Position numbers and translations under genes: made by a program. From Turritopsis dohrnii (lineage: Eukaryota; Cnidaria; Hydrozoa; Anthoathecata; Oceaniidae), in the NCBI GenBank assembly GCA_027922465.2, contig BQMF02000231.1, positions 558,001-622,000 of the forward strand: DNA of 64,000 nt. Reading direction: 5' to 3'. The notes beneath the pieces are model-generated. The model had not been told where the DNA came from. It searched no databases and worked only from the letters and a program-made list of their open reading frames with translations. Below are positions 3,729-46,202 of the stretch, piece after piece. Within the stretch, counting starts at the first letter, position 1, and each line of letters opens with the position of its first letter.

Positions 3729-3767
<39 letters not shown>

Positions 3768-3768
3768 T
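3727..3768. repeat. (AAT)n microsatellite
   Basis: An uninterrupted run of AAT triplets immediately upstream of the left terminal repeats of the recombinase element. The same pairing of an AAT run with the terminal motif is seen, inverted, near 28.06-28.16 kb. Confidence 0.95.
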
Positions 3769-3773
3769 ATATC

Positions 3774-3915
3774 AACGGACTCCTTTCAAAGCTTAACGGA
3801 CTCCTTTCAAAGCTTAACAGACTCTTTTGATAGGCGATGGACTCTATTGACTGAAAATCGGACTCTATTGATCAGATATCGGACTCTTTTCCCTCAAACA
3901 CGGACTCTTTTCTTA
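3774..3915 (+). repeat. Left terminal direct-repeat cluster of the recombinase element
   Basis: At least six copies of a motif close to CGGACTCCTTTCA or CGGACTCTTTTGA at intervals of about 20-28 bp. The first two copies are in near-identical 22-bp units ending AAAGCTTAA. The same motif in the same orientation forms the larger array at 11.58-11.94 kb, so the two clusters bracket the recombinase gene as direct repeats. Confidence 0.85.
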
Positions 3916-4416: not shown

Positions 4417-7400
4417 ATGTTAAGACCTAGACGACGTGGCAAGGTATGTATGTTTGAATAATATATATTCTTTTTCTCTCTACATCATGCATACAGATAG
4501 GGTCTGAAAATTTAGGACAGTATCAGCTTAGTAGTACCCTGTCTATCTATCGATAAACACAATTATATATATGCAGCACTCACATTTACTTTTGATTTGT
4601 CAGTTTGTTCAGGGTATTAGGATGCAAATACAACCATACGTAAACATTTGAAAGTCATCTATTGAAATGCTCAACACATTGGCAGGCTTTTTGATATGAA
4701 AAAAATAGGTGTGTGACGTCTCGCACACCTAATCAAGGATTGAGGTGTTTAAAGTGTATTAATTATTACTCCTGTAAAGCTGATTTAGGCATGTGATGAC
4801 ATGCAATCATGCAAATGCAAATCATTATTATATATATACTATTCTTATGTTTTAATCAAAATGAAAATTCGGATCCCTAGTCCTATTTAATGTTTTTATA
4901 AGGAGTGTGAAAAATATTATGAAAGATATCTCCTGCTAATGAATGGTTTTGTTCAAAACATAACAAAAGTTCATTATTTATTTTCAAATGTAAAATGCTA
5001 TTATTATTCTTTTTCCTTTATGATAGACATTTCCCAGGTTTCAGTTTAAACACCATTTTCTTTTGACAAACTCATGGTAATAGTTCCGCCTGATTACTCG
5101 TGTGTAATAAATCTGACTTGTGATCGTGACACAAAATGTTATATGATTCAATTCTTTTAAAGCAAATCTCAAATCTCATATCAAACATATTGCTACTTAA
5201 AATAGTTATGATAAGAGCATATAAATACAGTTTCGTTTACTGAGTTAGGGGTACTATTTTTTTAATAGGGATGAAATTTATAGACACCATTGGTTAAAAA
5301 TGTCTACATATTTTTTCTTACAAACGTGGGATGTCTTTCTGTATTGATTGTAATTTTATAATGAAAAATGTTGAACTATGTAAAAGGAAATCTAAAAGAA
5401 AAAAATCCCTAAAATAATAATGAATGAAACAAAATAAATTAAATAAAAAAAATTGACATATAATTATATGTCAATTATAGTTTATTGATAATTGAGGCGT
5501 GCTAAATGACCGCTAGTCTCAAGCAATCAATGAGTTTCAAGCAATTTTGCCCTTTCACTGTTGCTTTATCTAAAAGCTACCACAAATTCTTTCAGTTTCT
5601 TCCTCGCACCTCAGCTGCCTGGAATGCTCTTCAATCATGTGCGATAATCACATGACTCATATTGGAAAGCCTGTATTGAAATGTAATCTATTCTTTATAA
5701 ACTTCAAGAAATTTTTTAAGCACCGAATACAAAATTCTGAAACATGAGATAAAGCTAAGGTGAAACTGCAACTTTTCATTAGTAAATGATGTGAGAACAA
5801 TACTGATAAATTTTAATGCAAATGGCTGAAATGGTTTTATATGTTGGTAATAAATCAAATGGATAGTCAGTGTTGTATATATATATATATTTCTTAATAC
5901 AGGCTTATTTTTTTAATTATAGCACAAACATTCTCAAATTATTGAACTAATGGAACATGATCCACCTTTTTTAATGAAAGAAAGGATTGATGATGTGATA
6001 GGTTTGTTAAATCCCCACATTTTTAGTTAAAAATTAATTTTTATGTAGAAATGGCCTTCACTGTGCACAATGTGTTTCCCTTGCTTACAGACATATCTCT
6101 ATTCAGAAATGTGATGAATATGTTTGTACAAAAAGTTGACAAAGGTCCTGGGAAAGAGGTTTTAGGGTATAAAAAAATCACTTGGACTGCATAAAGTTTT
6201 TCTTTGCCTGATCTACTAGACAATCCCAATAGCACTCTCTCATAACTTGTTTCAGGTGAAGGGGTTTTTGCATTGAAAGATATTGACTGTGGTACACCGC
6301 TACTGGTATACAAAGGAAAACTGATCTCCAAAAAGCAGGGAGACATTGCAACTATCAATTATAAAAGAAGAAAATTTGGTTGTTTTGTTTTTGACATCAA
6401 ATTTAATAGGAAAAATATGTGGTATGAAGATTTTTTACAAATTGCTTATATTTTGTTTTTGATATTTTGTATTTTACTAATAAAAACAATACTCATGGGT
6501 TATTATGTATTTTGGAGACATGAAATTTAATGTCTTTAGTGTTGATGCTACCTTGAGTGTTGGATTGGGGCGCTATGTAAATGACAGTCCTGAGGAACAT
6601 GCTAATTGTAAAATGAAGCAGTTGTGTATAAATGGAGGGCCAGTACTGGTTTTGTTTTCAATTAAAAAGATAAATGCGTATGATGAACTTCGTTATTGTT
6701 ACAATGACAGTGAAAGCAACCTCTCATGGAGACAAAGTGTAAGTCATTTCCATTAATGTTTATGCAAAGCAGTAAAATTCAGCTGAAATTGATTTGTTCT
6801 TTTCAAGAGAATAAACTGCACAAAATTTAAATCCATCTTGAATTAAAAATATCTTTTTTTAATTTTTTCTTTTTCAGGACCAATATTTGAAACCTTTTTC
6901 CATGAAAAGAAAAGTAATTATGCCATTTATATCGCTGTATATTCATCATTCAAGGTTTTTCTGCTATTGTTTGCTGTTCACTGTTTTTGATAAAAATGAT
7001 TATTTCATAGGAACTAGTCTTCATAGCTGATGAGATGGTAGATGGAATTATTTTGCAAGAGAAGCCTGCTGTTACAATGTTTCAAAAGGTTATTATGAAT
7101 TTGGCTTTGGCCTTGAGTGGGGTGAGTGATTTAAAAAAAAAATAAAACCAGTAAATGGGTGGGTTTCATTTTGATAATATAATAGTTAAGGATTACAGAA
7201 TTATTACAGAATGCAATGACAGGAAGTGTCTGGTTTATGCTTCTACCAGACAAGATTTCTGTCAGTAGAATAATATAAAATTTTATATAAAAATTTGAAT
7301 TCATGCTGTAATTTGTGCAAACATGCCATACAAATCTTCCGATCAAATAAATATTGTAATGATATATTAGTTGCAGTGTTGTATTCCTGTTTTTAATATT

Positions 7401-10400
7401 TTTAATATTTTTTGCAGTTTGTGTATATACTTGTATAAACATTGTTGTTTCTAGCCAGGTAGAACTGAAAGAAGATGTGTATCATTAGAAAGTCCAAATG
7501 GTATGACATTATTCCTATTATTTCAGAAATGAAATGGAACCATGGGTTTTTATTTTTGTAATATTTATTTATCATGTTTTTAGTGAGACCTCTAAGAGAA
7601 CCATTCCTGAAAGTAGAAGATTTGACTAGGTGAAGAACTATTGGGTATTTTTTGTTTTTGTTAATTTTGTAAATGAAAATTGCTTCTTATGACATTCTTA
7701 TTTGTCAGAATTTTCAAGCCCCTTGTTTTGGAGAATGCTCATGATTCCTTTGATATCTTCAATGAACGGTTAGTCAAATTCCTTCCATTGAATAGTTCGG
7801 TAGTAGTACATGATATGTTTTTGATTCATGCAAAGGCATATGCTGATTATAGACCTAAAGATGCATGCAAGGAAAAGAGTGAAAATGGATACTGCGAAAA
7901 CTGTGACATCAACTTTTCAAATTTAGATCATGTGAGATTTACCAACTAAATTATTTTCCATTGATTCACATGTATTGTGGAAACTGGTTGCTTCCTTAAC
8001 TTAGAAGACTTTATTCTAGACTGATTTTTTTCCAGCACTTAAGTTCAGCACAGCATGCATCTAACATTGAAAAGTTTAAAAGAATTGACAAACTTGTTGA
8101 GGAAGGCTCCCTTGATAATTTTGATACTTGGATGAATAATTTTAAAAAGAAAAGGTATTTTATCGATTCTTTCAGTCATTCTTCCAAATTGTCTTTGTTT
8201 CTGATTGATTTATATACCGCTATTTTCTTGTTCTCTCTGTTTGATTCAGTCTGTTAAGTGATTCTCAAAAGTTATCATTGGATAATGAGGTTCACATGTT
8301 GATTGAGGAAACAGATGTCCATTCCAGTTATCATTTAAATAATGAGGTGATGGAACCAGGGTGTGGCCTTAGTCAAAATCAGATGCTGATAGAAGTGCCA
8401 CATATGAATTCTGGATATCAGTTGAATAATGAAATAACGGAAGCAGGATTTGTTGATTGTGATTATCATTTGTTAAGTCAAGTTCAGCTGCTGATGGAAG
8501 TACCAATTAAGAATTCTGGTAATCAGATGAATAATGAAATTGCAGAATCTGGATCGGTTAATGGCCTAACTCAAAATCAGATGCTTATAGAAGTCCCGAA
8601 TATGAATTCTAGAAATCATGTGAATGTTCTTTCAAAACAAAAATCAATTGATGAAGTCAATGAAGAGCCTGGAAGCTTTTCTTTTCAAGCTCAAATGCAA
8701 GAAACTGGTGAATCTCTTTCTTCTGAAAATCTTCCAATCAGGGAACCCGCTCTGAAAATGACAAAGTTGAGGTGATTAGGATTGAACACTCTTACCTGGA
8801 CATTAGGTATCCTTGTGGAATTGTAACACTTTCATACATTTTCATGATTATTCTTTTGTCTTTGTTTCAGACCTAAAACACGAAAGAAGTTTCCTTGTCC
8901 TGTTGCTGGATGCAAAAGAGAAGTCCCCTATTTACGCTCTCACTTGGAGATTTGTCATAACTGGAGCAGCATAAGTGCGAAGGCATCGGTCAGCAATTTT
9001 GGTTTGAGGAAGACCAACAAAGATCCCACTAAAAAAGATTTTCACAAGATGAGGAAATGCCCAATAATAGGATGTAAAGCAATTTTAAAAAGATTACCCA
9101 AGCATTTGTTAGAAATACACAAGGTTGAGAAAAACTATCATTATTATCAGTTACTAAAGAATGCAGAAGTAGTTGAAAAGACTTTTGAGGTTGGTTCGGT
9201 TGTAGCTTCACCAAAGTCAATAACCAAACACGCACCTAAACAGTATCCACTGAAATCAGCATCTAACAATTTGAGCAATCTTGCAGACCACTTGTCATCC
9301 TCTGACCTGACAGATTGTGATTTTCAAATAAATGAACCCTGCCACAAGGAAGATAGTGATAGTGATGGTGAGTTTACTTTAGATGATAATGGTTTATTAA
9401 TATCTGCTTCATTATCTGAATTGCTTACGGAATTCAAAACCTTTCTAACCGGATTTGATGGAGGGTGTCGAAGCATTGCAACAGCAACACAACTGACTTC
9501 TGACATAACACTGCTTTGTAAAAATGTAGGTTGTACCAGAAATTTAGATAACCTACTGAATGTGGACTATTTCCGTGATAAGTATATGGAAGTATGCAAG
9601 GCCCGTGGAAATCAAGCCACTACAATTAGAAAATACCTTTCAAGCTTATTGCTTTTTTGTCATTTCCTGATAACGGATAAGTCAGATAAAGAACTACCAG
9701 ATAAAAGAATTTATAACCGGTCTGAGCTTCTGGCATTTATGAACCGTGTCAGTGTATGGAAACGTGGTCTTAACAGTGATTGCAAAACCGTTAAAAGACA
9801 GAAGGAAGTTGAAGACTTAGAAATGCTAATTTCAGCTGATGATATCAGTAGATATGATAACTGTGAACACAGTGAAAAGGCAAATGCATTATTCTCAGAG
9901 TTAGAAACACAACTAAGGCAAGTCACGCAGGATGAATATTGCTGTTTAAGAGACCATTTATTGATCAACATTCATTTCGGAAATGGGGTGAGATCAGGAG
10001 TCACCAGTAACATGACGGTGAAAGCAGCAGAAGACCCTAGAACATCTGCAGATCTTTTAGAAGTCCGAGTTAAGCAGCATAAGATGAGACACCAATACGG
10101 ACCTGCGCCAGTAACGTTCTCTAAATCTGAATATAACCAATTGAAAATCTTTCTTAACGTCAGGAGCCAACTTCAGTCTCCATATGAAAACGTGTTTTTA
10201 TCGTGGTCGGGTAACCCTATGGGCTCTGGTGCCGTGAGCAATCGATTAAATAATATCTGGAAAACCTACAAGATTTTTATTAAAACTCCAATAAAAAATC
10301 TTTCATCAAATCTCGTCAGAAAAAGCGTCTCAACAGGTATCAGAGATGCAAAAGTTGGATTTGAGCAAGAGGTAGCAGATCTTATGTGCCATGCAAAAAG

Positions 10401-11404
10401 TACTGCTGACACATGGTACCATGTGCGAAATCGGCAAGTGTCCGTAGGCTTGGCGGGTCAAAAAGTTAGGGAACTGTTTCGTCCTAACCGTGAATGTAAA
10501 GAATCTAATTTCACTATGGCGGTAAGCTTTACAAATTTGGTAGTTTCATCAGAAAGGCGGTAATGTCGTTTTAACAAAGCTGTGTGTTTTTAGCTCCCTT
10601 TATCTCCGAGAAAAACTTGGGCAAATCACAAAGTTGAGGAGTTAAAGGATTGTTTCGCAGAGGACATAAGTGAAGGAAGGGTAGTATATGGTAGAGTTAA
10701 AGAGAAGGTCGGTGAATTGAGTACAGATGCATCTCCGCGACAGGTTTACGACAAACTGCGTCAATTATCTGGAAAAGTATTGTTCTTTTATTTTAATTTA
10801 TTCTCTCACTTTATACTAAGTGATTACTTTAAAGGAACTAAATTTGGTGGATGAATAGGCACATTTTTAATTTTGCAGGAGTTTAATTGTGGGAATTTAA
10901 TTTCGTGGTTGAAAAACAATTCGGGAACGACTTAAAATATATAATCTTGCGGGAATTTAATTTCAATGAAGCCCCCTAAACCGCGAAATCTACGAAATTC
11001 AGTTCTTTGAAAACTCTATGTTAAACAATTATTGCGTTTCTTTTAGTTCTCCGACAATGACGGATCAAAATATAAGCCCGCTTCGCAAAATCGTCGATGT
11101 CTTTTTGTGAGACGTTTATTTTAGGTAATTCTTTAATTTCATTTTGTGCGTAATGTTTCTTATGAATCGTGAATCATACCTTTAGAATATGGAAAAGCAA
11201 ACTCGTCGAAGTCTTTTTAGCGAGAATGATATCGCAGTTTTACGAGAAAACCTTTCTCACGTAATAGAAGGGAAAGAAAAGATTACAGAATCAGTAGTGC
11301 GCGATGCTCTAAAGGATTATCCCGAATTTAAAAACTACAAGTTTACACAACTGCGAACTCGCATTATGTATGAAAGAGCGTTGTTAAAAGATCAAGATTG
11401 TTGA
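4417..11404 (+). CDS. SET / DBF-finger / C2H2 / tyrosine-recombinase protein (15 exons)
   Basis: Exons: 4417-4443, 5923-6001, 6256-6421, 6540-6738, 6878-6913, 7011-7121, 7455-7500, 7584-7629, 7709-7931, 8036-8154, 8250-8771, 8871-10521, 10594-10776, 11047-11106, 11186-11404. All introns are GT-AG and all phases agree: 3687 nt, 1228 residues plus stop. Domains: SET about 36-157 (GEGVFA, YKGKLI, CVDAT formed across a splice junction, GRYVNDS, DELRYCYND), most like KMT5A; DBF-type finger about 297-335 (GYCENC...HLSSAQH); about four tandem 31-aa repeats in 355-470; C2H2 fingers about 534-554 and 588-608; tyrosine-recombinase core with Arg899, Lys926/929, Asn1005-x-x-Arg1008, His1032 and Tyr1041; two related C-terminal modules about 1076-1136 and 1157-1228. 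The recombinase half matches a family I know as abundant in cnidarian and fish genomes. Start chosen at the only in-phase ATG exon upstream of the SET exons. Likely an intact YR DNA transposon or a domesticated derivative. Confidence 0.88.
5451..5476. repeat. Perfect 26-bp palindrome
   Basis: Positions 5451-5463 and 5464-5476 are exact reverse complements with no spacer, centred on TAATTA. It is AT-rich and lies in intron 1 of the recombinase gene. It could be a chance or cruciform-prone sequence, or the footprint of a small palindromic element. Confidence 0.9.
5520..5720 (+). pseudogene. Small LINE ORF2 3'-end relic
   Basis: The plus strand reads SYHKFFQFLPRTSAAWNAL, matching the common LINE ORF2 C-terminal pattern of FFPRT..WNALP type, followed by a short open stretch and stops. 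No catalytic part is present; it is an intronic fragment. Confidence 0.45.
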
Positions 11405-11573: not shown

Positions 11574-11940
11574 TTGAGGATGTTTGACACGCTGCTAAAT
11601 GTTAACGGACTCCTTTCAGTGGCGCAAACTGACTCCTTTGACACGCTGCTAAATGTTAACGGACTCCTTTCAGTGGCGCAAACTGACTCCTTTGACACGT
11701 TGCTAAATGTTAACGGACTCCTTTCAGTGGCGCAAACTGACTCCTTTGACACGCTGAGAAATGTTAACGGACTCCTTTCAGTGGCGCAAACTGACTCCTT
11801 TGACACGCTGCTAAATGTTAACGGACTCCTTTCAGTGGCGCAAACTGACTCCTTTGACACCCTGATAAATGTTAACGGACTCCTTCCAGTGGCAATTTGA
11901 CTCCTTTGACGATAAATCGGACTCCATTAAATAAGTTTGT
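11574..11940 (+). repeat. Right terminal direct-repeat array of the recombinase element
   Basis: Six near-identical 60-bp units, each with ACGGACTCCTTTCAGTGGCG followed by CAAACTGACTCCTTTGACAC and GCTGCTAAATGTTA. The last unit is degenerate and ends in CGGACTCCATTAAATAA. Each unit holds two ACTCCTTT(C/G)A cores. Orientation matches the left cluster at 3774-3915. Open frames across it on both strands are by-products of the 60-bp periodicity (a multiple of three). Confidence 0.95.
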
Positions 11941-12276: not shown

Positions 12277-14541
12277 ATGTGTAAACAAGTCTCCCTAGAA
12301 GAATTGAAGAAAGTTTTGGACCAGTCAGAAGATAACATTCGTACAATATTCAGTGGAGCTGTGAGTTTCTAAGAGCTGTTTGTTCAGTTTTCATTTTTAA
12401 CATTGATGAAAATTCATATTTAACGTTCATTTATTCAGAATTCAACATTTCGATATCGCTGGTATCATGAGAGTTCAAAAAAACGAAGTATATGCTTTTT
12501 ACTTATTGGGCACCTTCTCATCTTGTGATACTCTTTTTCAGTGGGATCTTTGTTGCTCTTTCTTAAACTGAAATTGCTGACCGATGCCTTCGCACTTATG
12601 CTGCTCCAGTTACGATTCCTTTTTTCGCATCCAGCAACAGAGCAGGGAAACTTCTTTTGTGTTTTTGGTCTGAAACAAAGTATATGAAATGTACTATATT
12701 TTACCATGGTAAAATGTATATGCATACACATTGGAGTTGCTTGATTTTTAGGAATGGATCAAGTTATATCTTACCTAAAGCAAAAAGTTTATGTATCAAG
12801 TTATAAAGTAAGATTACATTTAGAAAATGTGTTCCTAATTCTACCATTTATTTTATTATTTTTATTTTGTATTTGTGTTTAGGAGTCAGATTTTCTGCTC
12901 CGAGTGATCTTACCGGAAACCTCAAAGATCGTAATTTCGTATGTTCACGCAACCTCTGTGGACAGTGAAGTATGAATTTCATCTAATGTATTGTTGCGCA
13001 ACTTCCATGTTTGATCCTTTTCAGATCTTTTTATTTATTCATCACTTATTTAGGTTGAAGATATTTTAATGAACGGAGAACAAGAAGAACTGTCAGAAGA
13101 CGAAGAGGAACGTGAATTGGTGAGCAATTCGACTTATTCTTTTTATGGTATGTTCATTTCTGTGGGACTCGTTATAAGAAAGAAGAAAATTGTCAAGCGT
13201 AGTCGGTATAAAAAGTTATATTTCGTTGCTTTTTGTCCCGCTGTCTAGATTAGAAAAAAATACATCCCGGCCAAACAGGACGGGTCCCCATATCACCAGA
13301 CCGTACTTCTCCCAATAGATCGAGCGACCTAACTTCTCACTTGTTTCAAGGGATGTAGATTTTCCGGATATGAAAAGGTATACCATCTGTTTTATTAAAA
13401 TTCCACTGTAACAGAAGTTGTTTTCATTACATTTTGCTTCTATTATCAGGTAATGATCAGCTTCATCCTTAACTTATCTCCTCTTCCTTAGTAACATGAT
13501 AGTGCAACGTGTGGAACATGACATGATGATTCCTATCATATACGAGAAAGTAAACCATTTTGTTAATTATTACTATATTTAAAGTACCTAGTGTCACACT
13601 AGTGCAGAAATGAAGTTGTTACCATTATGGGTAATAAGTGTAAACCATTATGTTTGAAAGTCGCATGAGTAATGTGCACGAAACACCAGATATCAATTTT
13701 TTTTTGTCATATTTTAGGTCATTAAAGGAAGTTGAAAAGTTGAAAAATGTATTTTGTTTACATAAATATATTGGGCTAATTTCATTGTCATTTTTGTAAT
13801 GTCTCAATTCCGGTTAAACCTTTGAAAAAATTAGTTATCTGAAAGTCTCAATCCCACGTTCAAGTATTGTTCACACCATGCGAAAGAGACAAGGCGATTT
13901 CAATTAAATTCCTTCATCCGATTACATGTTTTCGTTAAGCATGTGTCAAACGTCTAAGACGCCACTTCATATCTGCTCATACCTGTGGACCAAACCATTG
14001 GCTGATTTCGTGTGTACAGCTATGGGCATAATTTGACACGAATATTCGAATTTCAACGTTAAGCATTGGTTAATGCCTCATAATTTGTTGAAAGTATTAA
14101 TTGTTAAGAGTTTAGTCCTTTGGCTTCCATCTGTAAAAGTTGGCTCTTCTGCCCTTCGACTTGGAACGACAGTTAACTTATTATTAGAGATACGGTATGG
14201 CAGTGCTTTTACGCACAGGCAGGTGGTTAGTAAGTCGATGGCGCTCATAAGGAGCTGAGACGCTGCTTTAAAAGCGCATTGAAGCAGAGTATGATCTGAT
14301 CTTCTTTAAAGATGGCAGACGTCAAACCTCCTATCTTTTTTGTCTCGCTCACAGGGATTTGGATGCTAAAAGCTACCAAGAATATTTCTCTCAGCAAAAC
14401 AAAAAGATGGAAGAGTTGATTCGAAAGTTATTTCCTGAGAAAACCACACGGGAACGACTTATTAAAAGAAGCCTTAAAAGGCGCAAAGACGGAAATATTG
14501 GTCTGGATTCGAGCAAGAAGCACAAAGAAAGCTCAAACTAA
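12277..14541 (+). CDS. Unidentified multi-exon gene
   Basis: Five consecutive exons fit in phase: 12277-12360 (starting MCKQVSLEELKKVLDQ), 12439-12487, 12752-12807, 12883-12969 and 13054-13119 (acidic, NGEQEELSEDEEREL), with donors GTGAGT, GTATAT, GTAAGA, GTATGA and GTGAGC. Likely later exons are 13351-13377, 13492-13549 (MIVQRVEHDMMIPIIYEK) and a last exon about 14355-14541, which encodes a basic tail (KKMEELIRKLFPEK, KRSLKRRKDG) and stops at 14541; the joins after 13119 are not resolved because simple splicing gives phase conflicts. I do not recognise the family. It starts 340 bp after the right terminal repeats of the recombinase element and runs in the same direction. Intron 2 carries an inverted copy of part of the recombinase gene. 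Confidence 0.45.
12504..12680 (-). pseudogene. Inverted partial copy of the recombinase gene C2H2 exon
   Basis: Read on the minus strand, this segment aligns with about 8861-9068: it begins with the intron end TTTGTTTCAG and continues through the first zinc-finger half (FPCSVAGCEK) and the linker NWSSISAKASVSNF into KMRRCPIS. About 45 nt encoding the finger's second half are deleted. Because intron sequence is included it is a DNA-level duplication, not a processed copy. It sits in intron 2 of the neighbouring plus-strand gene, which would therefore be transcribed with an antisense copy of the recombinase exon. Confidence 0.88.
14087..14265 (-). repeat. 3' tail relic of a LINE-like element
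   Basis: About 75% similar by eye to 40210-40290 (shared TTGGCTTCCATCTGTAA, then TTCGACTTG-type sequence). On the minus strand the second copy encodes DPTVTDGSPRTK and is followed by a (CTTA)n tail, which is typical of a 3'-truncated non-LTR element. Confidence 0.4.
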
Positions 14542-14857: not shown

Positions 14858-15487
14858 ACAAGAAGCCGCTTAGCTTGAAGACTTCAGGACGTAACACAAC
14901 GATGCATATCTAATCTCAAAAATACAACATTGCCGAATTGCCAAATTATATTCAAATCTAACAAAAATGACTGGCAAATTCAAACTCAAACACTTCTAAT
15001 TGTGCGTTGTACAAATTTTTATGAATATTGTCCAAATTTAGCCCGAATGACCCATTTCTGGTCAAATCTGACAAAATGACTGTCAAATTCGAAATCAGCA
15101 CCTATCAAATGTAATACATGCAAAATTTCATGAAATTTGAAGAATTTTGGAAATATGATCCAAATTTGGCCTAAATTGGCCAATTTTAGTCAAACCTGGC
15201 AAAATCATTGTCAAATTTGAAATCAGCACCTTTCAATTGTGATCTGTGCAAAATTTCAAAAAAATTGAAGAATTTTCGAAATTTGGTCCAAATTTGGCCG
15301 AAATTGGCCAATTTTTAGTCAAACCTGGCAAAATCATTGTCAAATTTGAAATCACTCATTTGAAATGTGCTCCGTGCAAATTTTCATGAAAATTGGTCAA
15401 CTGGAAGTCCGAATTTGACCAAATTTGCGAATTCGGCAACGATGTCATGTAAACGCTGCACGAAAACACTCATAACTTGGAGTAGTA
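14858..15487 (+). repeat. Left inverted terminal block of a 5.2-kb composite element
   Basis: Contains about four tandem copies of a 127-129-bp unit (each with TCAAA(T/C)CTG(G)CAAAAT and GTCAAATT(T/C)GAAATCA). It ends in GAATTCGGCAACGATGTCATG, then CACTCATAACTTGGAG and a TAG microsatellite (15484-15515). The reverse complement of this block, with fewer tandem units, is at 19640-20040, including the outer GACTTCAGGACGTAACAC (here) against GTGTTACGTCCTAAAATC (there). Confidence 0.8.
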
Positions 15488-15515
15488 GTAGTAGTAGTAG
15501 TAATAGTAGTAGTAG
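15484..15515. repeat. (AGT)n microsatellite
   Basis: Run of AGT triplets at the inner edge of the left inverted block; the right block has a TCC run at the equivalent place. Confidence 0.95.
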
Positions 15516-15574
15516 GAGGAGAAACCACGGGTATTTTAAATACTTTACTCCACCACGGGTGTCCTAAAGTCAAT

Positions 15575-16073
15575 AACAAAGTGATGGAATCACTGCTGCA
15601 AAAGCATCCAGAGCCACTTAACAGGTTCAACGAGCTATTGTTACAAGATCCTAGAGCATTTGTCCATCCAACGACGTTTGATAGCGTAGACGGGACTAGT
15701 ACTCAAAAAGCTTCTGTGAGAGAGCATCTGGACCATTAAAATTGGATGCAGAAAGAAACGAAAGAAACATGGAATGCTTTGTAGCATCCACTTTGATACC
15801 ACTGCACAATTATCCTGGTGTGAGATCCATCGGTATACGGGAAATGAAACGAACGATTGTCGGCAAAACAACCATGGGCCACCTTAAAAATGGCGCAATG
15901 GAGGCATCAGGTGGCCTGCAACTTTATGGTGGTCAACAAAGTGATTGTGAATCTGCTGTTCACTCAAGAAGGGAGATCTACGAAGATGAAGACACAGAAG
16001 CGATTCTTTTGATTGAAGCTTCAAATGCATTTAACAGCATGAACAGGAAAGTGATGATTGACAATACCTTTAT
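15575..16073 (+). pseudogene. Reverse transcriptase fragment (central part), interrupted
   Basis: The plus strand reads VMESLLQKHPEPLNRF and VHPTTFDSV, a stop, then FVASTLIPLHNYPGVRSIGI, a GGLQLYGGQ..DCESAVH segment and TEAILLIEASNAFNSMNRKV. This matches the finger and palm of a reverse-transcriptase family widespread in cnidarians (family pattern LIPLDKNPGVRPIG, LQ.CAGQ..G.EAA.H, LVDA.NAFN..NR). The stop at about 15737 falls where part of the fingers is missing. The frame is cut by the hairpin insertion at 16074 and resumes at 16479 (IICPTFDMFSSNCYQL), then is lost. Confidence 0.8.
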
Positions 16074-16478
16074 GAGGTATCTATTCGCCATAAGTTTTAA
16101 TAATAAAACAAGAACATTCAAATTAATTTATTTTATTGAACGAAGCTTTTCGTAAGAACTCTTACATCTTCAGGTTAAAAATATACACTGTTACTGTGTA
16201 TATATGTTACTGGGATGCAACTATTAGCGTCAAACAATGAAAACACGAAGAAAAGGTTAAGAAGGTACAGAGTCATGACGGAAATAACAAACTATTCTAC
16301 TTTGAAGAGAAGTGTAATAAAAGAACTCAGAACTCAGATCCCACACAGCAACGAAAGAATGTTTCCTGTGTATAAACAGTGTATATTTTTAACCTGAAGA
16401 TGTAAGAGTTCTTACGAAAAGCTTCGTTCAATAAAATAAATTAATTTGAATGTTCTTGTTTTATTACAATACCTTTAT
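16061..16478. mobile_element. Hairpin insertion with 13-bp target duplication
   Basis: ACAATACCTTTAT occurs at 16061-16073 and 16466-16478, flanking a 392-bp insertion in the reverse-transcriptase frame. The insert has two perfectly complementary 90-nt arms (16101-16190 and 16377-16466) around a 186-nt loop. The loop holds about 160 nt identical to the minus-strand sequence at 17431-17592. Joining the flanks restores the reverse-transcriptase reading frame across the site, so the pre-insertion state is clear. A 13-bp duplication suggests target-primed reverse transcription rather than a cut-and-paste transposase. Confidence 0.85.
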
Positions 16479-16560
16479 CATCTGCCCTACATTTGACATG
16501 TTTTCTTCTAACTGTTATCAACTAACAATCCGAATGCTGCAATGATGTCAACATAGAACT
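16479..16560 (+). pseudogene. Continuation of the interrupted reverse transcriptase
   Basis: Immediately after the right target duplication the plus strand reads IICPTFDMFSSNCYQL, the continuation expected after the NAFNSMNRKV segment of this family, then decays. Confidence 0.65.
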
Positions 16561-20040: not shown

Positions 20041-22890
20041 AGCTTCCCATTATTGTACTCTCTCTTTTTGATTTTGTTTATCACGGATGTTAACGGGTTG
20101 TAGAATGAGCATATATCTTCTGGATGTTTCTTAGTTGTTTCCATTGTTTCGAGTGTATGCGCTATTGTGGTTGGCTGTTACATTTCCAGTTTTCGTTTTA
20201 ATGGTGCATATTCTGTCGGTTCTCGGTTTAAAAGTAAAGCCTTACAGTTGATTGGACAGCTACTCCAGTGGATTCATCTTTTAGGTTTTTTCAATGAGCG
20301 AAAACCTCAAAAGTTACTAGCTTTAGTCGTCTATTTTATTTTCCCGTGCTGGTGGCGGTTAGGTGTCTTTCATCTTTGAAGCCTTTGCAAACAACTATTG
20401 TCTTAATCTTAATCTATTGTCTTAAGCGCGGTAGCTGAATTTTGTTTATAACTGTTTATTTCAGAGAGTGTGAAGATTAGATTCAAACCAACTTTCTTAA
20501 CAGCGGATCCATGAATTACACTTTGTTAGATTTCTATGCCCTGTAGTCACTGTGAAGTGAAGAGGGAACAACATGGAAACCTAAGTCTAGATCAGAACAC
20601 TAATGTCATCATAACCAGAATTCTTGGGCCTGTCTTTCGTTATGGCTGTGCGTTCATTAGATCCAGGTTCTGGCTCCAGAAAGTTTCTTTTTTCCATTAT
20701 GACGAAGAATGTTTTCATAAAAAGTAGAGGTTGGTTTCGCTACTGTGGAACATTTTGTGCACATGGAATATCTTGCATTTTAATTATCTCTTAGAAAAAA
20801 TCAAGTGAAAATAGTATTGTTACAGAGTTATTTTACTTGCGTTGGAATTCAGAGCTTTCGTTTATATAAAAGGCTGGATTTCCATTCATAACATTTGTCC
20901 AAGACTGGGCGCAATTTTCGCTAGACGATAAAAACGCGGGCGGGATATTATGATATTATGATGGCGATAAAATTAACAGCGCAGCAAGTGTTATAATCTG
21001 TAACTCATTGCGCATGTGTATGACGTCATTACCTTATCCCGCTCACTTGTTGAAATTTGATGTAAAAGTACATATGTGCGAATAATTTTAAAGGGAAACA
21101 TCAAGGCATGCGCCGAAAGAATATAATACAATCAAGATTACGTCTTATATTATAGGGATTGTAAATCCAATTCACAGATTGATTTTTGAGGATATACAGA
21201 CCTTTTTCGTTTTAAAAAAGTCTGGGATTACAATATACATCAATTTCAAAGTATTTCGGAATAAATCATTTTTTCCATTCCCCTTTATTTATGCTCTTCT
21301 CTGCAATCACCAACACCATCAACGATGGCAATCCATTTGATACTTCATTGTAAATTGGATTTATCTTCTAATTTGTGAACCGAAAATAACTTTTTCTCAC
21401 TACTTCAAAAGAAAACATACTGCCGTATTTGAATCAGGTTTTCGTAATTTATTGTACCAGATCACAACCGGATTAGGTAAATTACTATGTATTTATATAG
21501 TTTTTCTTCTCTTACTTTGCTAAAATGTGCCGTCTGGATAAAACCTTTTGGAACGCCAATGTCAAAGATTCTGCCCAGCCTTTCTCGTATAAAGAAAGCT
21601 GACCTACTCTAAAGGAAACTGTCATGAACTAAAAAGCACATTTATAAGACTGTGTACGTGCATCAAGTCGAGTGTTAAAGAAACTTCACAATATTTACAA
21701 TTGTACATATTTTGCTACTCTCAGCATACCCGAGTACATTATTCCGATGACCCTATGTATCAAAAGTACACCCTCGCATTGGAGTACATTCTGATGTGCA
21801 TACGACAACAAAGGATAATTTCAAACACATTTCCGAACAGTGCATCAGTTGGATACAATTTCAGATTGGATAAAAAGCAGAATACAAGGAAAAAGACAAA
21901 ATGAAGCAATTTGCTCATAGGGGTATTTAGGGTCAGTCAAAAAATGTGGAGGAGTCCAACGTTACGATATTTCTTTTTTCAGTCTTAAGCGACGATTAGG
22001 TTACTTGCATATTTTTTTCTGGTCTACTTTAAATGACTTAACTCTGCTCCACAAAATTTGACTAACCTCTAGCTACGCCTCTGTTGTTCAAATCTATTCA
22101 CGTAAGTATCTGAACGATGTCTTCAAAGATTCCCTCTTCTATGAACTATGCTACGCCATGCTTAATAACGGCACTGAAAAATATTGGAAAGTGTAAATAA
22201 ACTCATTTATTTCTTGATCTATGAACCGAAAATAACTTAGCTTCTTACCAAAGGTTTTCATAGCGTATTTCAACAGTAGAACGCTAGAATCTAAGATATC
22301 TAAGATATTGTCCCGAATTGATGAGTAGTAACTTGTTAGTCCTTATCAGTTGGTATTGCTCTTCATTAGATAGTGTTTCTTGCTGGGCAGGAATGTTTCT
22401 AGTGACCTGGATTGCCGCAGTTGAAGTTACTTGGACTGGTGAATAGTCCATTGAATGATGCGGTGCTTCTGACCCCAGCAGTCCGTGAAAAGGGATGGAA
22501 AGGATTCATGGAATTACATGGAAGAAATAATTCGAAGGAAAAAACTTAGTGGACGTTTGTGGTTGGATTGGTGATCATCCATATTGCGAACATTTAGATA
22601 GTACATCAACGTCCGGAATCCCCGTAGATAATTCTAATTGCTACAATTAGTATTTAATTAGTGGTAGCTGATTGGTAGAATTTAATGTACTTCGATCCTA
22701 TAATTATCACCTCGAACATACATATAGCCAAAATGTCAATGACAGCTGTAGCTGTCGAAACATAGCCAAAATGAACTCGATTGTTCATGACATGATAAAC
22801 TCTGATTTATTCAATTATAATGACTGAACAGATAAGCGAAAATATTTTTCAAGTTTTGCGGATTTTTTTGCAATTATCTTCGAACTCTGA
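20041..22890. other. AT-rich region without recognised genes
   Basis: No convincing exon or element found. Visible features: two related stretches sharing GAACCGAAAATAACTT (about 21378 and 22223), GC-richer islands near 20925-21060, and a short palindrome TGACAGCTGTAGCTGTCG flanked by AGCCAAAATG direct repeats at about 22729-22771. Confidence 0.4.
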
Positions 22891-22900
22891 ATTCATAAAT

Positions 22901-22990
22901 TTCATTTCATGAAATCTCCACGCCGAGCTAATATTGCGACCCTATCATCTCGCGATAACTCTAGAGACCATAGCTTCAAACGCCTCTTCC
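22901..22990 (+). repeat. DIRS left inverted terminal repeat
   Basis: Reverse complement, with few mismatches, of 26510-26594: shared TTTCATGAAATC, ACGCCGAGCTAATATTGC, CATCTCGCGATAA and TCAAACGCCTC. Inverted termini plus an internal complementary region are characteristic of DIRS-type retrotransposons. Confidence 0.88.
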
Positions 22991-23143
22991 CTCTTTCTCG
23001 CTTTCAAGACAGACACATGCAAGTAAGTAATAACCGAAACTTCGATTAAATCCCTCTTTATCTTACTAACGTAGCTTATACAGACCTTATTTCAAGTCTG
23101 AATCTGATACCTACACTACATTGGAAAAATTTTTAAAGTTATT

Positions 23144-24027
23144 ATGTTCTCTCGTATTTCCCATAGAATGAGTGAGAACAGTGATTTCAATGGTAACGAA
23201 CTGCCAATAGAGGAGGTTGACGAGCTCCCGACAAACGAGGAAACCCAAACGACTAGTGATGACGAGACTCCTGCAAAGAGAGGACGTTTTGAGCTTTCTG
23301 AGGAAAAAGATAACTCATGGTCATTACACCAAACCTTGGCAAATTATGTTAATCGATACATGAATAGCTTTATCCCTAATCAATCCTTAGATGAGAACAT
23401 TCTGTTTTACCATTCTAAACCCACGAATGTTGGGAATGAGAAACAAATGGATTACCATTTGAAAGAATTATTAATCGAACAATAAAAACATGTTACTCTA
23501 AATCAGGATAAGTTAACAAACATTCAACAACGAATATGTTTTACATATGGACGTCTCAGTAAGCTCTGGGAAGAAATGGAAAATGGAAAAGCCTCTATAA
23601 TGAACGACGAAGAGGCTACTGAAAGACAATTAATAATATGTCGAACTTGCTTGATGAGGTGGTTTTATTACTTGGGCAAGCCTACAACTCTGTTTCCTAT
23701 ATGAGAAGGTTCAATACCCTTATGGCTTTCATGACTGACAAGAAGAAGGTGGAAACTATGCTGAAAGACATGGCACCTAGTTTTTCTAATGAAGAAGGTG
23801 GAATTATGCAAGATGATGTACTATTTGGACAACAGTACGAAGAGGCTGTTTCAAAAATTTTAACTTCCAAAACAAAGTCAAAGGAACTTTTTACTTCTAT
23901 CCAGAAGGCCCACAACCGTGGCACCTCATCCCCAGACGACCCTTTCAAAGAAGCCCCCTGTCTCAGCCAAGAGGTAGGGGACGTGGAGTATTCAGTAGCG
24001 CCGCCAACCACCAGTCAACACTCTTGA
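23144..24027 (+). pseudogene. DIRS gag-like protein (broken)
   Basis: First frame 23144-23485 is acidic (PIEEVDELPTNEETQTTSDD) and continues past a stop at 23485 in the same frame (LTNIQQRICFTYGRLSKLWEE). A second frame, 23638-24027, carries VLLLGQAYNSVSYMRRFNTL, a DIRS gag-like signature, and MLKDMAPSF. One stop and one frameshift are visible. Role in the intact element: nucleic-acid binding and particle assembly. Confidence 0.7.
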
Positions 24028-24049
24028 ATCAAATAGGCTACAGAGGTCA

Positions 24050-25860
24050 AAGAGGTATGTTTAGATCCTTTTCTTTCCGTTTCTGTAGAACTTTTAAGTC
24101 CACAGGATTTTCTAAGCATTCACCTTGAAAAAACTTCCAGTGCACCCACCAGCAGGGCGAACACAGTACTTTCTAAAAAACTGGAAAAAATTGACAAACG
24201 ATCAGATAATTTTAGACATCGTTCAGGGATACGAAATTCCATTCATGATTTTTCCAAAGCAGGACAAGTTCCCAGTCTCAATACCAATGAATCAAAGGGA
24301 AAGGATCCTTGTGGAAGAGTAAGTTCAGAAAAAGGGTCCAATCAGAGAGGTGCAACCCTTAGAAAACCAGTTCATCGGTAGGTACAATTTTCCTTATGGG
24401 GAAAAAAAAATGGTGGACATCGTGCAGTCATCAATTTGAAAAAATTAAGCCAGATAATTCCATACAATCATTTCAAAATGGAAGGATTGCACCTTATAAA
24501 AGAAATGCTATGTCCAGGGGACTACATGTGCAAACTGGTCTTAAAGGACGCCTATTTTGCAATCCCCTTGTCAAAATCTCAAAGAAGTATGTAAGGTTCC
24601 TTTGGGAGGGACGGCTCTACGAATTCCTATGCCTGTGCTTCGGGTTGTCGAAAACTCCGTGGATTTTCACAAAGTTGATGAAAATTCCAATAGCTCTCTT
24701 ATGACGTTTGAGAATCAAAGTGTTAATATATCTGGACGACTGCTACTGATAGCTTCCTCGATCGAAGAACTAAAGGTGGCCAGAGACACTCTAATTTATC
24801 TTTTGCAGCATCTGGGTGTCTGATAAACATCAGGAAATCTGTTTTAGACCCAATTCAATGTCTAGACTTTCTGGGAGTGTCAGTCAACTCCCTGACAATG
24901 ACTGTGAAACTTCGAATGGAGAAGGTCAACAACTTAAAAGCACAATGCTCAGATATGATAACAGGGAAAAAGGGAAAAGGTTACAATAAGAGACTTAGCT
25001 AAGTTAATAGGGAAGTTGTACTCATCAGTAGTAGCTGTACTTCCAGCCCCAAATACAATACAGGTATCTTCAGCACCAGCAAATCAAAGGGCTGTTGACC
25101 ATGCACAGTTTCGAGGCAATAATAACCCTCTCAGACTTAGCAAAAAGGGAACTCCAATGGTGGGTCAACAATCTAGAGCTCTGTAACGGATTGATAATAA
25201 CTCCAACGCCACTAGTGATTCAAAATATAAAATCGGATGCATCAAAAAAGGGTTGGGGAGCTTCTTGTCAGGGACATACAACAGGGGGGCCTTGGTCAAA
25301 AACAGAGGGGAGTCTTCATATCAACATATTGGAACCAAAAACATGGAAATGGTCAAAGTCAGCAAGGAAATTTGGAAGTACATTCTGGAACAGGAGATCA
25401 CTCTTACTGCCAGCTACATACCAGGTTCTCTGAATTTAGAGGCCGATTGGGGATCCAGGCAACACCTATACGACTCAAGCGAATGGAAACTACACCTATT
25501 AGTGTTTTAAAACATTTGCCAGGCCTGGAGTACACCAGACATAGATCTGTTTCCCTCAAGAGTGTCACACCAACTCCCATGTTACATGGCTTGGAAGTTA
25601 GATCCTCACAGCAAGAGGAGGGATGGATTTCAAATAAAGTGGACTCATCACTACGCATACGCCTCCCCCCTTTCTCCCTGATAGGAAGAGTTCTCAAGAA
25701 AGTGAACCTGGAAAGTTTGGACATGATTCTCATAACACCAGCTTCGCAAACCCAAGCTTGGTTTCCAACATTATGGGAGTTCGAAATCCATTACTATTAC
25801 CAAAAAGGAGGGATATTCTCAGGAACCCAGTGGGGGAAATACACCCATTAGTAAGAGACA
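24050..25860 (+). pseudogene. DIRS reverse transcriptase and RNase H (broken)
   Basis: Spread over three frames. Recognisable parts: PVHPPAGRTQYFLKNWKKLT (24137), GGHRAVINLKKLSQIIPYNHF then LVLKDAYFAIPL (palm motif A, about 24415-24580), LIYLDDC (motif C, about 24723-24743), LDFLGVSVNS (about 24865), RNase H start SDASKKGWGASC (about 25226), ILEPKTW (about 25328) and SYIPGSLNLEADW (about 25413), then PPFSLIGRVLKKVNLE (about 25667). Motifs are mostly intact but the frames are disrupted several times. Confidence 0.85.
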
Positions 25861-26045
25861 ACAACCTCAGACTTCTGGCCTGGGCTATCTCAGGAAAATT
25901 ATGGAAACAGAAGAAATATAAGAGAGGGCTGCCACCCTTATCTCAGCTTCCAGGTGGACAAGCACAGTCATCATTACAACTCGTCTTGGGGAAAATGGCG
26001 TAGTTGGTGTTCGCAGAGAAAAATTTGTCCCTTTAAGTGTCCTTT

Positions 26046-26506
26046 AAATTTTATTTTGGATTTTTTTTTGGATTCTTAAAACTCACTAAGATGTGTCGAT
26101 TTGGTGAAATTAGACAACCTATAAGATTTTATAAGTTTTCTGAGGAAGAAAATTTATGTGTATGGACAGCTCTTACACATTATCTGGAAAGAAGGAGAAC
26201 ATGGGAAACTACTGATACCCAGTTATTAGTTAGTTACATAAAACCACATAAGGCGGTGTCCACTTCTACCATTTCTAGGTGGCTGAAACAAGTGTTGGAT
26301 GAAATTGGGGTTGATACCAATAAATTCACCGCTCATTCAACTCGATCTGCTGTTACATCTAAGGCTTAAAATTTAGGCATTTCAGATTCTGATATTCTTA
26401 AACAGGCTCACTGGTCTGGAGAATCAACGTTCCAACGTTTCTATCATAAGGAAGTAAGGGATTTTGGACTCACATTCCAAAAGACCCTCCTTAAGGGGAC
26501 ACTTTG
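26046..26506 (+). pseudogene. DIRS tyrosine recombinase (C-terminal part, broken)
   Basis: Reads IRFYKFSEEENLCVWTALTH, STSTISRWLKQVLDEIGV, FTAHSTRSAVTSKA, a TAA stop at 26367, then LGISDSDILKQAHW and FQRFYHKEV. The H-x-x-R box (HSTR), the Trp/Tyr end and the catalytic Tyr are visible. The first catalytic Arg and the N-terminal core-binding region are missing, so there is a deletion near 26010-26090 in addition to the in-frame stop. Confidence 0.85.
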
Positions 26507-26509
26507 AAG

Positions 26510-26594
26510 AGAGGCGTTTGAGGCTATGGCCTCTAGATTTATCGCGAGATGGGAGGGTTGCAATATTAGCTCGGCGTGAAGATTTCATGAAATA
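26510..26594 (-). repeat. DIRS right inverted terminal repeat
   Basis: Begins GAGGCGTTTGAGGCTATGGC and ends GATTTCATGAAATAA; complementary to 22901-22990. Confidence 0.88.
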
Positions 26595-27010
26595 AAAAAT
26601 TGAGGATTACGTCAGGGCAAGGTAATCCCGATTTCATGAGTGAAATCCGTGCGTTCTTTTAATTGGATATTTTCTATTTCGGCAATTATATCGTGGATCC
26701 AGCTACTGATGTATTCATAACATATATGTTTTGATTTAAATAAAGCATAAACAAACTTACACTTCTTTTAACTACCCTATTGTAATGAGGGCGCTCCCCT
26801 GGTATTTGTTCTTTCACGTTCCCGTCGTAAGTGTTTTAACAAAATAATAATAACTTTTTGGAAACGCCCCTTCGGGAACGTGTTTATTGGATGTGTCCTC
26901 TAGATTTATCGCGAGATGAGAGGGTCGCAATATTAGCTCGTCGTTCCGATTTCTCTCATGAAATCGGGATTACCTTGCAGGAGCTGCGCGCCCTGACGAT
27001 ATCCTCACTT
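26595..27010 (+). repeat. DIRS internal complementary region
   Basis: Contains a direct partial copy of the right terminus (26896-26943, CTCTAGATTTATCGCGAGAT and CAATATTAGCTCG) and a segment 26962-27003 (ATGAAATCGGGATTACCTTG, CCCTGACGAT) inverted relative to 26606-26650. In DIRS elements this region templates completion of the ends. A GAACGTGTTT/AAACG hairpin-like segment near 26855-26882 follows. Confidence 0.8.
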
Positions 27011-27025
27011 CTAACTTCTAACTTC

Positions 27026-28060
27026 TAACAAATTGGAAGTGTTCTTTCTCATCGGCAGGTTCAGGGTGTTTCCTTAATATTTTGTACACAATGCATTTTT
27101 AAAATATTCTAGTCACAAAAGTATCTGAACAATGTGTGATTCGGACTTCAGATTTTAACCGTGCTTAAAATTGTCATGCTCTGTCACAGAATATGCTTTC
27201 TTTTCAGTATATTGATCTATTTTAATAAGTCTTCATTCCGTACACAAGTAACTTTCTGCAGAATTGAAATCGGAGGAAAGAGGATTTCTCGACAAAATGA
27301 AAAGTGAAAAAAACTTCCTTTGATTATGTAGCCTCTTAAAAAGTCATTAACCAATGTCAAAAACAGGTTGAGTGTGCAAGCTCAAGCTTAGTAAAAAATA
27401 ACTTTACCGAATTGACAGACTTAGTTTTAAGAAAAACACGCAGTCGACACCGCTGACTAGATTGCCTACACGATCCCTGCAAGATCCGGTGTAGAAACAT
27501 TTGTCTTTAAAACATTTCATCTAAAAATTATTCGGCTGAGATATTCTAATAAAAGCTCTGAAGAAGGTCATCATAGATGCAAGCAGAGGGTAACGGTGAA
27601 AGCTCTGTACGTCGGAAGTGTTCCAATGAAACTAAATCAAAGGTCAGACTACTAATAATTTGGAAAATTTGACAAACTAATTATTAGATTGACAAAGTAT
27701 GAATTATGGTGATAATAGTTTGACAAAGTTGTTTTTGTTTGACTTTATTGGATTTTTGTTGGTTAGGCCAAATTTTAGTTTGTAATGATTAATCTTTTAG
27801 TTAACGAACACACCATAGTGGTTTGCAGACAATTCTGCAGAAATAGCTGGTGATATTTGCCGTCAGTTAATAGAGTTATTCTTACGCTCGTAAATTCAAG
27901 ATAATATTGGCTATTTTATATGAAAATGAGTAGGAATGATCCAAATCTACAAACTAAAAGCAAGTATATTGTTTAAACTATCTTCCGGCAATTCTATGGA
28001 CTGTATTCATTGATACGGTTGATATTGATATCGTATTCCGGTAAAAATTATGCCTCTGGA
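27026..28060. other. Spacer without recognised features
   Basis: AT-rich sequence between the DIRS element and the terminal-motif relic. A run of ACTTCTA units (27006-27030) marks its left edge. No open frame of note, and no repeat recognised. Confidence 0.4.
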
Positions 28061-28096
28061 AGGAGTCCGTTCAAAGGGGTTCGTTGACATTCTAAC

Positions 28097-28158
<62 letters not shown>
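28055..28158 (-). repeat. Relic of the recombinase-element end plus (AAT)n
   Basis: On the minus strand an ATT/AAT run (28098-28157) is followed by GTCAACGAACCCCTTTGAACGGACTCCTTCC, that is, the GGACTCC motif next to an AAT microsatellite. The order and orientation are as in the left end at 3727-3800, but inverted. Confidence 0.5.
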
Positions 28159-44630: not shown

Positions 44631-46000
44631 GGTGGAAATGCAGTGTGAATAAAATTCAATAGCACCTCCGTCAATGGTTTATTGTTGCTTTACGTTGCAT
44701 ACCTCTTCACATCATCTCTATCTGGCGCTAAAGACATCCCCAGATAGCGAGACTATGAAATTTAAATATCTTACGATATTGTCGATCACAACAAGGTTTT
44801 TTCTTTTCGCTAAATAGTCAAAATGTAAGTAGACGACAACAAGTGGCCCCTCCAAATCAAAACCTGTGTTAGTAGCAAAAGCATCTTGGACCTTTTATAC
44901 CGCATTATGAGATACGTGGCTAGGACTTTCCATTAAAATAATGTTTTCATTCTTTTTTAACAGCTTCCACAATTACAGAATTATGTCAGTTATTTACGGA
45001 TGTAGTATGTAAGCCAAGAAAGATTCACACGAAGATATCATATCTACCATATACATACTTACCAGAAACTCTTCCATTTCATCTTTAATACTTTTATAAA
45101 ATTTGAAGCAGGTTCTCTTTCTTGATTTTTGTTATAATTTTGATACTTGGGTGTTTATCAAATTTTTTTTAATTACATCGAGTATAGGATTTTCGTAGAG
45201 CTATTTGGAAAGTGAGAAAGTAATTGAGGGAGGTCCAATTTTGGAGAGACTATTAATTAGAAACCATTGATTAGAAACCATTAAAAACTCACAAAAAAAA
45301 ACAAATTATAATCTCTGTATTTTATGCCTAAATTTTCATTTGGGATGCAATCATTTTATTGTCGCAATAATAAGTGCATTATGACAATGACTATCACTAA
45401 AAAACAACTGGCGAAATTGGGCTAGAAAATGCGGTATTCAATTTTGTTGGTCAGAGTAGTAAACAAAACAACATATACAGCGCGATAAACACACACACGC
45501 ACAAATGCGACGACTAGTACCAAACAGTAATTGCGTATGCGTTTTTAGCTTGGAGAAATGAAACACATTGTATAATATATATACATTCAAGAAGAGCGAG
45601 GAACTTTTCCGGTAAGGGTTTTTTGTTGGGTGCTGATTAGGAATGGTTTAACCAAAGGTCGATGGAAGTATTTTGATATATATGTTTGTAAATGCAAACA
45701 TATCTTCCAGCAATTCAGGTGATTTATTTTATTACGACCCTTATGTAACTAGCTAGGATCCATGATACGCTATGAATTGCTATATTGCTACTGCTGTGTA
45801 TGTTTGTACACAAATCCTTCGAAATTACGTTTAAAAAATCGAAATTATCTTTGGCTGGGGATGCATAGAAAAATTTTCATTTTTAAATTAACGGGTTGAA
45901 TTTTTCTCCGAAATTGATAATCGTCCCTCCTCGATTATTCGAAACTAGAGAGTATGTAAACATTGTATAAATTTGATTATAACATTTGCTTATAACATGG

Positions 46001-46202
46001 CGCCGTAGTGTAGTGGTTATCACTCTCGTAATTCATGCGAGAGATCGGGGTTCAATTCCCCTTGGCGGCGATTCACCATGCGCGGGTGAATGTACCATAG
46101 CGCCGGGTCGACCCGTGGCCCCTCCTGGAAAGCAGATGCAATAGCAACTGAATGAGGCTAGCCACGTAAAACAATACCAAATAAATAAATAAATAAATAA
46201 AA
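46001..46202 (+). mobile_element. tRNA-derived SINE
   Basis: The head 46001-46070 resembles tRNA-Val, with A-box-like TAGTGTAGTGGTTATCAC and B-box GGTTCAATTCC. The acceptor stem is reduced to CGCCG/CGGCG and the anticodon loop lacks the usual T33, so it is not a functional tRNA. A body with GGGTCGACCCGTGGCCCCTC and GAATGAGGCTAGCCACGT follows and ends in an (AAAT)n tail (46180-46202). Transcription would be from the internal Pol III promoter; mobilisation would depend on a LINE. Confidence 0.85.

Follow-up and report, generated by a model that had tools for sequence, protein, structure and literature searches.

A KMT5A-like SET domain joined to a tyrosine recombinase in a probable large DNA transposon of Turritopsis dohrnii

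A 64,000-bp stretch of the hydrozoan Turritopsis dohrnii genome (assembly GCA_027922465.2, contig BQMF02000231.1, positions 558,001 to 622,000 of the forward strand; hereafter the window, on contig C231) contains a 15-exon gene, spanning 4417 to 11404 on the plus strand. Its exons form a single open frame that encodes, from N to C terminus, a SET domain, a DBF finger, two C2H2 fingers, a tyrosine recombinase and paired C-terminal modules, the domain order that an earlier reading of the letters alone (the sequence-only reading) had given. That reading was confined to these coordinates, which mark one gene only, the leftmost of a mobile unit of about 24.3 kb (approximately 3750-28093) that is near-identically present on three other contigs (C476, C582 and C6; the sister copies). 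The best explanation, to which we assign a probability of roughly 0.78, is that the unit is a cut-out-and-reinsert DNA transposon encoding its own SET-C2H2/DBF-tyrosine recombinase, with the KMT5A-like SET domain at the N terminus. The evidence supports a SET-fused transposon recombinase.

Structure of the gene and its predicted product

The sequence-only reading had joined 15 exons across GT-AG introns, and this join, all on the plus strand, reproduces 1228 codons with a single terminal stop; however, its end of exon 6 was wrong. Exon 1 (4417-4443), nine codons followed by a 1479-bp intron, is the least certain, and exon 2 lies at 5923-6001. The SET domain is divided between exon 3 (6256-6421; N-terminal half, placed by the exon join, Pfam and the sister copies) and exon 4 (6540-6738; C-terminal half with VNDS and YCYND, placed by Pfam, alignment to PDB sequences and the sister copies). 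Exons 5 (6878-6913), 6 (7011-7088), 7 (7455-7500) and 8 (7584-7629) lead to the DBF finger, whose halves fall in exons 9 (7709-7931) and 10 (8036-8154), both placed by Pfam and the sister copies. A repeat linker (exon 11, 8250-8771) precedes exon 12 (8871-10521), which holds two C2H2 fingers recognised by eye and the recombinase core, and the first and second C-terminal modules occupy exons 13 (10594-10776) and 15 (11186-11404), on either side of exon 14 (11047-11106). An alternative exon 14 end at 11124 gives a stop and was replaced by 11106.

Exon 6 was corrected from 7011-7121 to 7011-7088 by comparison with the three sister copies, and the frame still closes, yielding 1217 amino acids. In the sisters, ...TTTCAAAAG is followed by gtaagt (C476) or gttagt (C6 and C582), and a stretch of about 330 bp after this donor, which by eye resembles a short interspersed element (SINE), is mostly missing from the window copy. 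The end at 7121 was rejected, as the last 11 residues that it adds are intron and the tail of the SINE-like stretch. Because the donor of the window copy reads gttatt, weaker than those of the sisters, its exon 6 splice site is possibly weakened. The earlier description of the gene as intact holds for the reading frame only.

In the 1228-residue model, Pfam recognises SET at residues 36-146 and zf-DBF at residues 296-333 (E 1.2e-9 for each, both above the cut-off), in line with the domains named by the sequence-only reading, whereas Phage_integrase at residues 880-1041 is weaker (E 4.3e-4, 20.5 bits) and falls under its cut-off of 27.1. The recombinase assignment is backed by structure comparison and residue alignment, which place a tyrosine recombinase fold at 9403-10455 (plus strand), the predicted fold of the catalytic domain agreeing with that of tyrosine recombinases. 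The complete R-K-R-H-Y set is present (R374, K404, R483, H507 and Y516 in exon 12 numbering, with codons starting at 9991, 10081, 10318, 10390 and 10417) and is invariant in all six aligned proteins including that of the window; the first H of HxxR is N in the window recombinase. By its catalytic residues and predicted fold, the product is a tyrosine recombinase, and its paired C-terminal modules are conserved. A profile of the recombinase returned a single weak, unrelated match among PDB sequences, and its C-terminal part alone returned only weak, unrelated ones. Viral and bacterial/archaeal contigs yielded 70 and 28 stretches fitting the pattern, none of which was confirmed as a relative, and phage records gave no match.

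The SET part is of KMT5A type by sequence, its best 13 matches among PDB sequences all being KMT5A/SETD8 chains (E from 1.9e-12). It keeps the GxG, YxG, Asn and Y-x-Y motifs, but in the PDB alignment NHS has become NDS and YDY has become YCY, and the active site thereby departs from that of KMT5A. Both the histidine of NHS and the YDY motif are important for KMT5A catalysis.

Ends, copies and interior of the element

The limits of homology among the four copies define the element, which starts with ATCAACGGACTCC... and ends with ...GTTGACATTCTAA (3750-28093, plus strand). Homology begins at 3729-3750 with an AAT run followed by ATATCAACGGACTCC, and the left flanks of C231, C476 and C6 are unrelated to one another. 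The C582 copy is flanked on the left by a divergent relative (C582:72258-76800), whose inverted end carries six boxes of the kind described below and a SET gene pointing away; the two elements stand head-to-head within a single ATT/AAT tract. At the right end, near 28093, all four copies read GTTGACATTCTAA, then an AAT run, then differing flanks, the C582 copy having been followed gap-free to 28123. For C476 and C6 the comparison covers the element up to window positions 22744 and 25394, respectively, and then the right end, from about 27568 and 27863 onwards. AAT runs thus border eight of eight ends, and in the window the putative target tract is represented by an (AAT)n run at 3729-3771 and a (TAA)n run at 28093-28157. 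The right end (28040-28092, minus strand) repeats the left imperfectly in inverted orientation; the two are 66% identical across 83 alignment columns, which include the AAT run. An element end at the box array at 11.6-11.9 kb was ruled out, as sister homology continues to 28.1 kb.

The sister copies show 98-99% protein identity to the window copy in the recombinase exon and 93.6-98.8% nucleotide identity among the four over the main aligned segments. SET domain, DBF finger, C2H2 fingers and recombinase are in frame in all four, and the 15 exons, with exon 6 corrected, are of equal length and free of internal stops; in C6, AC replaces AG before exon 15. Relative to the window copy, exon substitutions amount to 0.58% in C476 (exon 1 not aligned), 1.23% in C6 and 0.99% in C582, against 1.37%, 2.02% and 2.08% in introns, and no exon carries an indel in any sister, whereas introns carry 9, 9 and 12 (large inserts between aligned segments excluded). 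The exon-intron contrast gives Fisher p values of 0.0002-0.01 for substitutions and 0.0001-0.0013 for indels, in three comparisons that share the window copy and are not independent. Intron 11 of the sisters contains an insert of 0.4-0.9 kb, rich in CGGCCGG and with inverted ends by eye, that the window copy does not have. A fifth, decayed place on C291 retains SET and DBF pieces. Four dispersed, near-identical copies with different flanks fit an element that was recently mobile, one of the two causes that the sequence-only reading had offered for the retained coding capacity.

Repeated boxes stand at both sides of the gene. A left array (3778-3911, plus strand) holds seven GACTC[CT][AT]TT boxes about 21 bp apart, and a 54-bp repeat array after the gene (11583-11928, plus strand) holds 12 in the same direction; these 19 are all of the exact boxes in the window, every one on the plus strand, and a one-mismatch box at 28058 on the minus strand is part of the right end. 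The sequence AACGGACTCCTTTC occurs at 30 exact places in the genome, compared with 0 and 1 for the reversed control. In a relative on C145, all 18 boxes in the stretch examined lie on the gene strand, and the C14/C29 family has none within 3 kb before the SET exon. The boxes may serve the fingers as binding sites or have a regulatory role.

The copies differ in parts of the remaining element. At 12-28 kb no frame exceeds 206 amino acids, and Pfam found nothing above the curated cut-off in ten selected open reading frames (ORFs) of the 13-26 kb part. A broken, inverted fragment of the end of intron 11 and the finger exon (12503-12680, minus strand) is present in all three sisters as well. The stretch at 15396-16531, containing a fragment that resembles reverse transcriptase (RT) by eye, has no counterpart at the same place in the three sisters, which carry about 270-370 bp of other sequence there, and a broken, retroelement-like insertion (22620-26721, plus strand; by eye) is absent from C582. 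Directly after the box array, 12278-12968 contains a possible second gene start (MCKQVSLEELKKVLDQ..., by eye). Just outside the element lies a long tandem array (503-2764) of 83-, 125- and 208-bp units with 94-96% match. To the right, three similar pairs of open frames on the minus strand (28229-30425, 39679-42008 and 57666-59880), with RLPCKRHGNFSIKK... and ...VRFLQLHTNP...-like sequences, perhaps represent a tandem host gene family, and a tRNA match at 45999-46070 (34 bits against a cut-off of 29) is perhaps SINE-derived.

SET-recombinase pairing and the origin of the fusion

Across the genome searched (435.9 Mb, 891 contigs), the recombinase exon has at least 105 matches, a lower bound with 79 of 455 first-look candidates scored, and the SET search gave at least 154, with 150 of 340 candidates scored. 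For pairing, 79 main recombinase matches (26 shorter secondary ones set aside) were compared with 134 listed SET matches, after leaving out 16 (five pieces of exon 2 and 11 that were the second piece of a locus counted before). The nearest listed SET lies upstream on the same strand, 2-13 kb away, at 39 of the 79 loci, downstream on the same strand at five and on the opposite strand at none, and no listed SET lies within 25 kb at the other 35; the chance expectation is about 0.36% per locus. Conversely, of 124 merged SET loci, 39 are followed downstream by a listed recombinase, and for the other 85 none is listed there. Since many paired loci are copies of the same families, independent paired families are fewer, roughly nine by identity grouping. 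The SET part therefore recurs beyond the four near-identical copies, all of which contain it; copies that always lack SET, which the sequence-only reading had named as a refutation, are not what the genome shows. The repeated pairing suggests that the methyltransferase-type part benefits the element and is not there by accident.

What was read as one gene might nevertheless be two adjacent genes of a single transposon, one short and coding for SET (plus DBF), the other for a zinc-finger tyrosine recombinase, which permissive intron choice had joined. The recombinase relatives P0001-P0005 have no SET in the sequences compared, the SET-recombinase spacing differs between loci across the 2-13 kb range, and DBF exons turned up nowhere but in the four copies, the decayed place on C291 and one weak match on C273, the last being the sole case beside the SET of another family. 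However, the intervening exons 5-11 are in frame and free of indels in all four copies and the phases close at every join, which makes two separate genes unlikely. A domesticated, transposon-derived host gene, held by selection and spread with its surroundings by segmental duplication, would account for the long open frame in each copy and for exons changing less than introns, but it fits poorly with homology that stops at the same two end sequences within AAT runs, with flanks that differ in all four copies, and with a divergent relative placed head-to-head at one end. Moreover, among the four copies pN/pS is 0.62. Of the variable codons, 15 are synonymous and 40 non-synonymous over the whole gene, whereas in the SET domain none is synonymous and three are non-synonymous; short-term selection is consequently not demonstrated, the dN/dS comparison among four such copies being too shallow to reveal selection on SET. 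Host selection, the second cause that the sequence-only reading had offered for the open frame, is little supported because the copies are dispersed mobile elements with this pN/pS, and we regard domestication as very improbable.

Rather than possibly writing a histone mark, as the sequence-only reading had suggested, the SET domain may be a dead passenger or act only as a binding module. The aspartate at the position of the KMT5A catalytic histidine speaks for this possibility and leaves histone marking hypothetical: V-N-D stands in the window SET and in all 20 SET loci compared, whose motif counts are biased because a VND query served to select them by similarity, and the neighbour of the C582 copy reads V-S-D (S-D-S), having lost Asn as well. 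The C in place of D within Y-x-Y of the window copy points the same way. On the other hand, within the same biased sample, Asn is kept in 20 of 20 and Y-x-Y in 19 of 19 readable loci, and GxG and YxG persist in most loci in which that exon was seen (one reads MRG), and this conservation points to long-term constraint. By eye, an intron interrupts about 14 of the 20 at the position between exons 3 and 4, whereas in the rest a single exon was seen or the locus was a fragment, and the shared intron position suggests one SET ancestry. VND-type SET domains also occur in uncharacterised predicted animal proteins, none of which comes from the present analysis. Taken together, a SET domain that is inert or only binds falls somewhat short of an even chance.

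If the gene belongs to a transposon encoding its own SET-fused recombinase, the protein would bind the repeated GGACTCC boxes or the element ends, the ends would be joined into a circle via a covalent tyrosine intermediate, and the circle would integrate by recombination at an AAT tract. More tentatively, the SET part might methylate, or merely bind, a chromatin protein in the vicinity of the element, which could, for instance, hold the donor or the target in an open state or in the appropriate phase of the cell cycle. A bolder and rather doubtful scenario is that a superfamily of large animal transposons captured a KMT5A-type methyltransferase, with one polypeptide finding the boxes, recombining into AAT tracts and methylating histones or itself at the ends. 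If true, it would be a transposon with its own chromatin writer. The recurrent SET pairing might enable a transposon to mark the chromatin at its sites of action, and a SET part that is active would provide a natural example of a mobile element with a chromatin modifier inside its integration enzyme. With four near-identical 24-kb copies that have clear ends, a clear target tract and a full recombinase gene, the structure of the ends, the formation of a circle and the choice of target are open to direct testing.

Comparison with known systems

To our knowledge, tyrosine-recombinase DNA transposons have been little studied in animals. A SET-fused tyrosine recombinase element was not described in the titles and abstract openings searched, which covered literature outside subscription journals and repeat databases, and a search pairing KMT5A with tyrosine recombinase found nothing; the parts seen of a Hydra genome paper (PMC12220107) and an annelid histone paper (PMC12153100) do not mention such elements. 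Like Cryptons, including CryptonA of cnidarians and other animals (PMC3212892), the window element appears to be a DNA transposon with a tyrosine recombinase and no RT in that gene. However, animal Cryptons, as described there, have no terminal repeats and no C-terminal domain (PMC3212892), whereas the window element is 24 kb long, with imperfect inverted ends, paired C-terminal modules, C2H2/DBF fingers and SET; the word "methyltransferase" is absent from the main text of that paper. No RT was found in the gene and no RT family in the ten further ORFs, and the RT-like pieces seen by eye are in part absent from sisters. Unlike DIRS/Ngaro elements, the window element thus shows no intact RT alongside the recombinase, the main RT-like stretches having no counterpart in at least one sister.

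The captain of a Starship lies at one element end and belongs to the Pfam family DUF3435, which is not among the Pfam matches of the window protein at E up to 1. Starships, which are fungal, resemble the window element in being large and having a tyrosine recombinase, the captain by which they are classified (PMC12134995), and the opening of its abstract mentions no SET fusion. Endogenous nimaviruses share, in the account consulted (PMC10871703), a tyrosine recombinase with a C2H2 finger and SAM-like domain and repeat-tract-specific insertion, their C2H2 tyrosine recombinases inserting into microsatellites, with (TAACC)n as the tract. They are, however, viral genomes (300-360 kb in pemoniviruses; PMC10871703), whereas the window tract is (AAT)n, and the scan of the gene and of ten further ORFs recognised nothing viral; the term "set domain" does not appear in PMC10871703.

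KMT5A/SETD8 proteins are the closest relatives of solved structure to the window SET by sequence, differing in NHS and YDY as described above and in that the window SET sits inside a recombinase protein. SETMAR likewise has a SET methyltransferase fused to a transposon recombination enzyme (PMC8704517, PMC6715855). As portrayed in those sources, the SETMAR fusion belongs to the host and its mariner-family transposase is inactive, whereas the SET domain of the window is carried by what is probably a mobile element, together with a tyrosine recombinase whose catalytic residues are complete.
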